A stretch of 64,000 bases of DNA. Origin: Chlorobiota bacterium (GTDB lineage: Bacteria > Bacteroidota > Ignavibacteria > Tepidaquicellales > OLB5). The first letter of the stretch is position 1; each line of letters opens with the position of its first letter. The stretch is taken from positions 1 through 64,000 of the forward strand of contig JAKEEM010000046.1 in assembly GCA_022616535.1 (NCBI GenBank). Direction: 5' to 3'. Of this stretch, positions 22,152-61,270 are shown in pieces. The translations under genes were made by a program, and so were the position numbers. The notes beneath the pieces are model-generated. The model was not told the DNA's origin. It saw only the letters and a list, made by a program, of their open reading frames with translations, and ran no database searches.

Positions 22152-23399
22152 CTACTTTACAAGAATCATTTTTTTAGTTTCAGTGAATTCCCCTGCTTGT
22201 AAACTGTAAAAGTAGGCTCCCGATGTTAAATCGGAACCATTGAAACTGACTTCATATGTACCAGGAGTTAGCTGCTCGTTAACAAGCGAGGCGGTTTCTT
22301 TGCCAAGCGCATCAAACACGGTAAGAGCGACTCGGCGAGCAACCCCTGCAGGCAGCTCAAAACGAATCTTTGTAACTGGGTTAAAGGGGTTGGGATAATT
22401 CTGACTTAATGAGAAAGATGCGGGAATCTCAGTGGAAATTTGAGTTATGCCGGTGACTTCGGATGCATTCCTTTGGTAAATTCCCCCGCTTGTGGCGGCT
22501 AAAATTTTATTATTGAAAATGACAAGTTTATCAATGTTGCTTAGAAAGGGCAGTCCTTGCCCGAAATTTTCCCATAAGATTCCGTCATTTGTTGATTTAT
22601 AAATCCCGGAGCCGCCGAATTTTAGCGATGAAACAAGCACTGCGTTTACCCTGACAAAGCTTGAGGTATAGGGGTCAGGTGAATAACCGTTAGAGCGCTC
22701 AAGCCAGCTGGAGCCGTTGTTGGTCGAAAGCCACGCGCCGTGAATTGTTCCTGCAAACAGCTTTCCCGGCTCGGAAAAAAAAGTTATCGAAGGAACGCTG
22801 ATTGAGCTTAAGCTGTTCCATGTTATGCCGTTATCGGTGGAAAAATAACCGTTTGGTTGATTCCCGGTTTCGCGCGCAGCAAATATTGTTCCGTTATGAA
22901 GCGTAAAATTTTTCGCCCATATATGCATTCCCGTGATGTTAGTTGCAAGCCAGCTTTCTCCGCCGTTGGTTGAGCGGTAAAGTCCCGTATATGCTCCCGT
23001 AAACAAATTGTTATTATGCTCAAAGATTGATTCGCAGAACTCATAGTTTGCGCCGTTTCCGATAATAATTCCCGTGCTTTTTTTAATCCAGTTTGCACCG
23101 AAGTTGGTCGATTTGTAAATACCGTCAAAAGTTGCAGCGTATAATGAACCGCCGTTGCTGATAACCTGCACACATTGCAAAGCCTGGGGATTGTTTAATC
23201 CGCTTGAGATTTGAACCCAGCTTAGCGTTCCGTCTGTTGATTTATAAACGCCGTTATTTGCAGTCGCAGCGTAAACAATGCCTCCGCTGATGTAAATATC
23301 CTGCACATAGTTTACGGGGAATGAATTAATCTTCTGCCAGTCCGAATACAGGCAGGCAGAGTAAAGGAGGGCTGAAAAAATGATAAGAAATTTTTTCAT
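22152..23399 (-). CDS. Secreted BNR/sortilin-like repeat protein with type IX secretion sorting domain
   Basis: The 415-residue protein has a signal peptide (MKKFLIIFSALLYSACLYSD), then repeated blades with the Asp-box style GVYKSTDGTLSWVQIS, GIYKSTNFGANWIKKS, GLYRSTNGGESWLATN, GAWLSTNNGSSWLERS. The C-terminal 85 residues are a type A T9SS sorting domain (QNYPNPFNPVTKIRFELPAG; SGAYFYSLQAGEFTETKKMI). It is a beta-propeller-like protein delivered to the cell surface; the ligand is unknown. It is the first of three T9SS cargoes in the window and follows 18 bases after the gene at 23418. Confidence 0.88.
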   Translation of the reverse strand: MKKFLIIFSALLYSACLYSDWQKINSFPVNYVQDIYISGGIVYAATANNGVYKSTDGTLSWVQISSGLNNPQALQCVQVISNGGSLYAATFDGIYKSTNFGANWIKKSTGIIIGNGANYEFCESIFEHNNNLFTGAYTGLYRSTNGGESWLATNITGMHIWAKNFTLHNGTIFAARETGNQPNGYFSTDNGITWNSLSSISVPSITFFSEPGKLFAGTIHGAWLSTNNGSSWLERSNGYSPDPYTSSFVRVNAVLVSSLKFGGSGIYKSTNDGILWENFGQGLPFLSNIDKLVIFNNKILAATSGGIYQRNASEVTGITQISTEIPASFSLSQNYPNPFNPVTKIRFELPAGVARRVALTVFDALGKETASLVNEQLTPGTYEVSFNGSDLTSGAYFYSLQAGEFTETKKMILVK

Positions 23400-23417: not shown

Positions 23418-23948
23418 TTACTTTTTCGGGTCGTATTTCCTTAAATATTTAATGCTCTTCAAAAGCTGCTGCGCTTGTTCATAATCCTTATCTCCCGGCT
23501 TAATTTTTTTTAGATACTCCTCGGCTTTATCGTAGTCTTTTTCAGCCAGATATTTTGAGCCGAGCAGAAAATCATCGCTCGGGAAAACGTCTTTCATATC
23601 GTCATCTGAGGTTTTTGTATTTTCTTTTACGTCCTCGCCTGGAGACTCGATCTTTTTTTCTGTTTTGCGGTTGTCAGTTTTATCAGACTCAGAATACGAG
23701 ATAAAGAACACCGCAATGCCTGCGATTAAGACCACTGCAAATGCAGCCATTGAGAGCACTATCGCCCGTGCGCCGCCGGATTTTTTGCCGGATGAAGCTG
23801 CAATAAAAGGGTTTGTATAGAAAGGAAGTATAAACTTGTTATAATAGTCGGGGTCAGCCGTTTTGTAATGAGCCGCAAGCTCGTCAAAATACTGACGGCT
23901 TGATTTCCAGTACATTTCAAGCTCTTCTTTTGATGGTCCTGATGCCAT
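23418..23948 (-). CDS. Single-pass membrane protein with helical-repeat C-terminus
   Basis: The 176-residue product begins MASGPSKEELEMYWKSSRQY, has one transmembrane segment (AIVLSMAAFAVVLIAGIAVFF, about residues 62-82), a charged linker (TDNRKTEKKIESPGEDVKEN) and a C-terminal stretch resembling one or two TPR units (LLGSKYLAEKDYDKAEEYLK). It is probably an inner-membrane anchor with a periplasmic helical domain. No family is recognised. It precedes the T9SS protein by 18 bases. A palindrome at 23996-24015 lies 48 bases upstream of its ATG. Confidence 0.65.
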   Translation of the reverse strand: MASGPSKEELEMYWKSSRQYFDELAAHYKTADPDYYNKFILPFYTNPFIAASSGKKSGGARAIVLSMAAFAVVLIAGIAVFFISYSESDKTDNRKTEKKIESPGEDVKENTKTSDDDMKDVFPSDDFLLGSKYLAEKDYDKAEEYLKKIKPGDKDYEQAQQLLKSIKYLRKYDPKK

Positions 23949-24076: not shown

Positions 24077-24111
24077 TTGACAAATCTTTTCAATTCCGTA
24101 TATTTGCAATT
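24077..24111 (+). promoter_or_regulatory. Strong promoter for the structured RNA
   Basis: TTGACA (24077-24082), 16 bases, then TATATTTG (24099-24106), which fits both the sigma-70 consensus and the Bacteroidota TAnnTTTG element. The predicted transcript start is about 24111, with no protein start for almost 500 bases. Confidence 0.65.
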
Positions 24112-24256
24112 AAGAAGTTTAGTGAGCTAAACATCGTTCTTTGGTAATTCTCATATATGAGATTTTAAAAAGCAGCAGGAGATAGCTAGGTAAGGGTGGC
24201 TATCGTTTTTAGTAGGAGTGCTCCCAGTACTTCGAACGAACCTGCTGCATTTTTTT
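24111..24256 (+). ncRNA. Candidate structured non-coding RNA, family not recognised
   Basis: The predicted 146-base transcript folds almost entirely into helices: GTTTAG/CTAAAC (24117-24132, loop TGAG), the palindrome TCTCATATATGAGA (24149-24162), and a closing stem GCAGCAGG/CCTGCTGC (24172-24179 with 24241-24248). That stem encloses two arms, GATAGC/GCTATC (24181-24204) and AGTAGGAG...CTCC...TACT (24211-24231), making a three-way junction. Seven T residues follow the closing stem, as in an intrinsic terminator. No ORF of note is inside. It is not tmRNA, SRP RNA or RNase P RNA by sequence, and I cannot match it to a known riboswitch. Confidence 0.6.
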
Positions 24257-24354
24257 AAATGAAAAGCCGTATAAAAATGAACAAGGCGGAATCTGTTAAA
24301 GTGACACTTTAAAAGCTCCGCCCTTTCATTTGATACGGGGGCTTTGTATCAAAT
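24257..24354 (+). other. Second structured element with competing pairings
   Basis: AAATGAAA (24257-24264) pairs with TTTCATTT (24324-24331) around GGCGGA/TCCGCC (24285-24290 with 24317-24322) and TTAAAGT/ACTTTAA (24296-24312, loop GAC). A second hairpin, ATTTGATAC/GTATCAAAT (24328-24354), uses part of the same bases, and AAAGCC..GTAT can also pair with the GGCTTT and ATAC of its loop side. The exclusive pairings look like a switch or an attenuator ahead of the gene at 24599. The remaining bases to 24598 show no gene. Confidence 0.45.
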
Positions 24355-61195: not shown

Positions 61196-61270
61196 CGGGG
61201 TGTGGCTCAGCCCGGTTAGAGCGCCTGGTTCGGGACCAGGAGGCCGGAGGTTCGAATCCTCTCACCCCGA
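61196..61270 (+). tRNA. tRNA-Pro (anticodon CGG)
   Basis: All arms pair: acceptor CGGGGTG/CACCCCG, D stem GCTC/GAGC, anticodon stem CCTGG/CCAGG around TTCGGGA, and T arm GGAGG-TTCGAAT-CCTCT. The discriminator is A at 61270 and CCA is not encoded. A 12-base hairpin follows at once. Confidence 0.96.

Follow-up and report, generated by a model that had tools for sequence, protein, structure and literature searches.

The locus and its features

The window, i.e., the whole stretch of 64,000 nucleotides that we analyzed, is part of contig JAKEEM010000046.1 of a Chlorobiota bacterium. It contains an intergenic region that lies between a gene for a 176-aa protein (23418-23948, minus strand) on one side and a gene for a 498-aa protein, sufB, and sufC on the other. 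This gene order is retained in relatives belonging to two genera. The nearest downstream gene is located about 300-350 nt away in the window, compared to about 0.9 kb at the syntenic locus of most relatives, where small genes on the opposite strand stand in between. The original prediction, made from the sequence alone, placed a stand-alone structured RNA in this region. Its features are as follows.

24077-24106, plus strand: promoter (-35 box TTGACA at 24077-24082, 16-nt spacer, -10 box TATATTTG)
24109-24171, plus strand: leader of the copies at the syntenic locus, 63 nt, variable in sequence and without a conserved helix
24135-24142, plus strand: boxA-like motif CGTTCTTT, same core as the 16S rRNA leader boxA ACGTTCTTTCAACA of the own genome and of relatives
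24172-24179, plus strand: 5' strand of helix P1, GCAGCAGG, paired with 24241-24248; compensatory changes at 4 of 8 pairs; also 5' arm of the terminator
24181-24204, plus strand: hairpin P2, GATAGCTA-GGUAAGGG-TGGCTATC; compensatory changes at 4 of 8 pairs, all cells (100%) paired
24207-24208, plus strand: 5' strand of P3a, which lies just inside the junction and forms 2 bp with 24239-24240
24211-24214, plus strand: AGUA side of the internal loop AGUA/GAA, AGTA in 24 of 24 copies
24215-24233, plus strand: hairpin P3, 8 bp with a CCC triloop (24223-24225); compensatory changes at 6 of 8 pairs
24234-24236, plus strand: GAA side of this internal loop (bulged-G type), in all complete copies except the syntenic pair L038/L039
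24239-24240, plus strand: 3' strand of P3a, partner of 24207-24208
24241-24256, plus strand: 3' strand of P1, CCTGCTGC (24241-24248), and run of seven T (24250-24256); together an intrinsic terminator that uses the junction's closing helix as its stem

The promoter is present as predicted: TTGACA, a 16-nt spacer, and TATATT, which is followed by TG (24099-24106), match 11 of 12 consensus bases. We found TATATTTG 39-65 nt upstream of P1 in all 14 copies at the syntenic locus, and in the alignment of these copies the promoter block is better conserved than the flanking sequence. The seven T residues that had been predicted at the other end are likewise in place.

The folded core is supported by covariation

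The core (24172-24249) has a folding energy of -33.6 kcal/mol (z = -4.1), and none of 200 shuffled sequences was equally stable; for the whole 148 nt the folding energy is -43.1 (z = -3.3). The three-way junction closed by P1 that the original prediction described was recovered, since P1, P2, and P3 covary and RNAalifold, unprompted, returned the same three helices including the CCC triloop. Our pairing test covered 435 cells and comprised P1, P2, and P3 (8 bp each), P3a (2 bp), and a GGG-CCC contact that the loops might make. Standard pairs were observed in 97.0% of the cells, compared to 84.4 ± 1.0% in shuffled alignments and at most 52% in slid controls. Compensatory changes occurred at 15 pairs and the covariation score was 0.411 (0.174 in shuffles), whereby these counts include kin sequences, and the changes in P2 columns 13 and 15-17 and in P3a split groups of copies and may represent few events. 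None of 500 shuffles matched the observed pairing and compensatory counts, and an earlier three-helix model, set down before refinement, gave the same picture. Independent covariation events were added by the copies in G002, G003:C6, and G000:C41; in G002, which belongs to the distant genus g3, P1 reads GGCGGG/CCCGCC and P2 reads GTCGGG/CCCGAC.

Helix P3a was first seen by eye, after alignment. Its pair between columns 39 and 70 is CG in seven copies, UA in seven, and AU in one, and is broken in none; in the G002 copy each strand of the helix has an additional base (UUC/GAA). Between P3a and P3 stand UUAGUA and GAA(A), and AGUA facing GAA is what we take to be the sequence signature of a bulged-G (loop E, sarcin-ricin) module. 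Such modules are common, recur as building blocks in many unrelated RNAs rather than defining a family, and are often associated with protein binding (PMC7247131). The loop region of P2, TAGGTAAGGGTG, is invariant in all copies read except one, and a T-rich tail follows every complete copy. The GGG-CCC loop contact can be formed in every aligned copy; as it does not covary, showing one G-U change in two copies, it is unproven, and the contact may perhaps be made within or between molecules.

On the evidence of sequence comparison, the fold, the promoter, the terminator, the AGUA/GAA loop, and the two near-invariant hairpin loops are thus features of the RNA. The description of the transcript as nearly all helical was overstated, given that the 63-nt leader contains only two weak hairpins in the window (GTTTAG/CTAAAC and TCTCA/TGAGA). 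These two hairpins, which had been correctly noted for the window, are absent from the orthologous leaders and consequently lack comparative support; the GTTTAG stem, in which compensatory changes would have counted as support, is not conserved, and the conserved feature of the leader is instead an rRNA-type boxA.

Distribution of the RNA family

When 99 relatives were searched at the DNA level, the junction (query bases 103-187 in most cases) was retrieved, with 79-89% identity, from 13 of the other 14 genomes in the taxonomic family, several of which carry more than one copy, whereas the leader and its hairpins gave no match in this search. The genome of the window itself holds a second copy (G000:C41:17248-17337). 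Fifteen distinct copies align without gaps, and a covariance model built from them yielded 25 strong matches (61-108 bits) in all 15 genomes of the family, which span three genera; the G002 copy scored 71 bits. Because two matches in G006 are one copy split over contig ends, the matches correspond to 24 loci. The search over Ignavibacteria that had been proposed as a check thus returned a family whose stems P1, P2, and P3 covary strongly. The number of loci per genome ranges from one to five (five in G004, two each in G000, G003, G009, G013, and G014, one in each of the others), and these numbers are minima, as almost all assemblies are drafts and those of the named genomes derive from metagenomes.

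Outside the family, the model gave only weak matches of 20-26 bits among the 11 candidates scored in each of 396 genomes of the phylum, a scope within which remote relatives may be missed. We rejected these matches, which look like plain terminators; in those viewed as alignments, the similarity lies chiefly in P1 and the T run. A pattern of the invariant bases was found on 21 contigs in all of GTDB r220, all of them from Ignavibacteria or Chlorobi MAGs with OLB5 among them, and in 391 genomes of the class it occurred in this taxonomic family only. No related copy was detected on viral contigs or in phage and plasmid collections. Judged by sequence, the junction at 24172-24249 and the U-run after it represent a member of an undescribed RNA family that is confined, in the searches made, to one family of uncultured Ignavibacteria.

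Transcription signals and context of the dispersed copies

At the dispersed loci, a -10 box (TAnnTTTG or TATAAT) ends 4-7 nt before P1 in 7 of 10 copies, at a chance expectation of 0.8% per copy. This spacing predicts a basic transcript of about 80 nt that extends from P1 to the U-run, and P1 also serves as the predicted terminator stem in these copies. The unit of about 146 bases originally described consequently holds for the window copy, whereas the unit of the family is the junction of about 80 nt. The leader is missing in most dispersed copies, and boxA occurs at the syntenic locus only.

The dispersed copies adjoin unrelated genes and their neighbors differ between loci, so that no adjacent gene is conserved across them. 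At several loci (L032, L035, L040, and L100) the copy is located 24-77 nt past the stop codon of a same-strand gene, and some loci are syntenic between species (L032/L033 and L038/L039). The loci have no downstream gene in common, and the downstream genes are often convergent or far away; in the absence of a fixed downstream gene, there is no obvious target in cis. Inspection of the flanks did not reveal common repeats.

An rRNA-type boxA in the leader of the syntenic-locus copies

GTTCTTT is present in 13 of 14 syntenic leaders, compared to 0.03 expected in shuffled leaders, and the 14th reads GTTCATT. In the 16S rRNA leaders of G000, G001, and G005 (L113, L114, and L115), boxA ACGTTCTTTCAACA follows a hairpin formed by TAATTATAC and GTATAATTA, and these sequences look like clear leaders of the rRNA antitermination type. 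A position of boxA after a hairpin is familiar from rRNA operons. In the window, CGTTCTTT is located just after the hairpin GTTTAG/CTAAAC, in the same manner as the rRNA boxA follows TAATTATAC/GTATAATTA. In Escherichia coli, the boxA of rRNA is bound by NusB and NusE (S10) (PMC4807359). The syntenic-locus leader shares its boxA core with the rRNA-operon leaders that act in NusB-S10 antitermination; unlike in those, the motif precedes a short RNA with an intrinsic terminator and not rRNA. Our literature search for boxA on non-coding RNAs found no description of such a case. We consider it somewhat more likely than not that the boxA is functional.

Two pairings that involve the leader were considered and rejected. 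A stem enclosing boxA is convincing by eye, but it is not significant, its score being equalled or exceeded in 155 of 2000 shuffles. For a pairing of the leader GTTCTTT with the junction strand GAAARAAC, we noted that this strand reads AAAAAAC in most copies and that the leader carries no matching change.

Comparison with known RNAs

At the gathering threshold of Rfam 15, the only match in the whole window is a tRNA at 61196. When the threshold was relaxed to E <= 10, the 341-bp region around the RNA gave only sub-threshold matches at chance level (best 17 bits) and the G002 copy gave none. No tmRNA or tRNA was detected at the RNA and no Rfam family matches it, in line with the statement that it is not tmRNA, SRP, or RNase P RNA. 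Nor does the 6S model (RF00013) match the region, whose fold is a three-way junction and not a long hairpin with a large central bubble; 6S RNA was not found above the cut-off in any of the four genomes searched. Neither of the two outcomes named beforehand as speaking against the prediction, a lack of covarying stems or a match to a known Rfam family, was obtained, and our literature searches on this RNA and its group yielded no description of it.

Comparative genomics has previously uncovered stand-alone structured non-coding RNAs such as Chlorobi-1 and Bacteroidales-1 (PMC2864571). RNAs of this type are likewise intergenic, supported by covariation, without a known function, and limited to one lineage; in contrast to them, the RNA in the window has no Rfam match at the gathering threshold and no credible one at E <= 10. 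With its covarying stems, the missing Rfam match, and a promoter and terminator conserved at the syntenic locus and in dispersed copies, the proposal of a novel stand-alone structured RNA holds well at the level of sequence, and we consider it very probable that this is a genuine, expressed non-coding RNA family.

RNA chaperones were searched for in four genomes. Hfq (PF17209) had no match in any of them, while control genomes do match, and CsrA (PF02599) had none either. The RNA loop is GGUAAGGG and not GGA as in RNAs that titrate CsrA/RsmA. Pairing aided by these chaperones is therefore not expected, and the RNA probably works in another way than textbook small RNAs.

Possible modes of action

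Overall, the comparative data are best explained by a stand-alone, non-coding, structured small RNA of a new family that is trans-acting and probably binds a protein or the ribosome, a combined reading that we regard as reasonably likely. The basic transcript of about 80 nt would begin and end with P1, which doubles as the terminator stem, and the window copy would reach about 146 nt because a leader with an rRNA-type boxA is added. Action in trans, as a folded object, appears quite likely. Together with the bulged-G-type loop, the conserved loops GGUAAGGG and CCC may offer a protein or the ribosome a surface to bind, and we lean slightly towards such binding, rather than antisense pairing, as the main mode of action. 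At the window copy, NusB-S10 on boxA could couple transcription to the machinery that makes rRNA. A more specific version, in which this principal copy loads NusB-S10 like rRNA via its leader and the folded body acts on ribosome assembly or translation, is speculative and on balance rather unlikely.

The main rival to binding of a protein or the ribosome is antisense regulation in trans, in which the loops GGUAAGGG and CCC would be seeds for pairing with mRNAs (for example the C-rich loop with GGG regions), while the fold presents them and stabilizes the RNA. The loops are invariant or nearly so while the stems drift, and several divergent copies occur per genome, as is the case for multi-copy regulatory small RNAs. 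However, Hfq and CsrA were not found in the four genomes, and the conserved unpaired bases are located mostly in compact modules (AGUA/GAA and the CCC triloop) and not in an extended single strand, so that we give antisense pairing a minor though appreciable chance. A cis element, i.e., a riboswitch, an attenuator, or a decorated terminator, would serve the downstream gene, or the upstream gene with P1 and the U-run as its terminator. That P1 is a terminator stem and that L032, L035, L040, and L100 closely follow a gene on the same strand would fit this idea, yet a -10 box of their own precedes P1 at a constant spacing in the copies, their neighbors vary by locus without a consistent downstream gene or gene class, and at the window locus the distance of about 300-350 nt to the downstream gene, extended to about 0.9 kb with opposite small genes in between in most relatives, makes a role in cis improbable.

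Some genomes carry several copies at unrelated sites, with a maximum of five in G004, which could also be expected of a dispersed repeat or a remnant of a mobile element without a cellular role. This origin is quite improbable considering that the flanks show no common repeats by inspection, that loci are syntenic across species (the window locus, L032/L033, and L038/L039), and that the compensatory changes indicate selection on the fold. The original prediction saw no ORF; this is nearly right, although a frame of about 21 codons with a GTG start inside P2 is open from 24196. Many copies keep the frame open, in part owing to the near absence of gaps in the alignment, but it stops after five codons in G002 owing to a structurally matched one-base insertion and has no start codon in the copy in G004:C84, which argues against conserved coding. 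Moreover, the changes track base pairing and not codon positions, and a short protein-coding gene is accordingly a negligible alternative.

The architecture and loop sequences of the RNA are reminiscent of SRP Alu domains, a likeness that serves as a lead only, and because of the loops we examined whether it could be a detached Alu-type RNA, with a three-way junction and two touching hairpin loops, working with or against SRP. Bacterial SRP RNA is also a short structured RNA with its own terminator, and the junction is loosely Alu-like. The family's own SRP RNA, which is encoded elsewhere (G000:C3:18497-18594; L124), is of the normal small type, 98 nt long with its own terminator and no Alu domain, which would fit this idea. 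Against this, the SRP models (RF00169 and RF01854) do not match the RNA at E <= 10, and the AGUA/GAA loop sits in an arm that is longer than P2. In 396 genomes of the phylum, matches to the large-SRP model above the cut-off cover model positions 111-209 only, the S-domain part, so that no Alu ancestor is seen, and no large SRP RNA with an Alu domain was observed in these genomes. We therefore consider an SRP-related function very improbable.

The RNA adds a well-supported non-coding RNA family in uncultured bacteria in whose tested genomes neither Hfq nor CsrA was found. The rRNA-type boxA before a small RNA offers a concrete and testable link between the synthesis of small RNA and ribosome production, and if true, the NusB-S10 reading would tie a small regulatory RNA to rRNA synthesis. 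We infer the expression of the RNA, its binding to a partner, and any link to ribosome production. The alignment and the model are good enough for submission as a new Rfam family.

Further features in the neighborhood

In relatives, small opposite-strand genes occupy the gap between the RNA and the gene for the 498-aa protein, and one of them resembles the gene for an acyl carrier protein. On their strand, these genes are preceded by a conserved hairpin, GGCGAAAC...GTTTCGCC, with T residues after it (L099:6533-6587, L102:5632-5686, L103:5645-5699, L106:6544-6597, L109:907-961, and L110:2298-2351), and conserved TATCTAACA/TATCTGACA is found just upstream of it. The hairpin resembles an attenuator or a structured leader of another kind and was not detected in the window.

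On the minus strand of the window, 22152-23399 encodes a 415-aa protein whose C-terminal tail, QNYPNPFNP...MILVK, is like the sorting domains of type IX secretion; a similar protein is encoded next to the second copy of the RNA (L031). Just 3' of the RNA, at 24258-24352, lies a second strong inverted repeat, GAAAAGCCGTAT...GCTTTG (folding z = -4.6). It is absent from G001 and occurs once in the genome of the window, where it is perhaps a further terminator.
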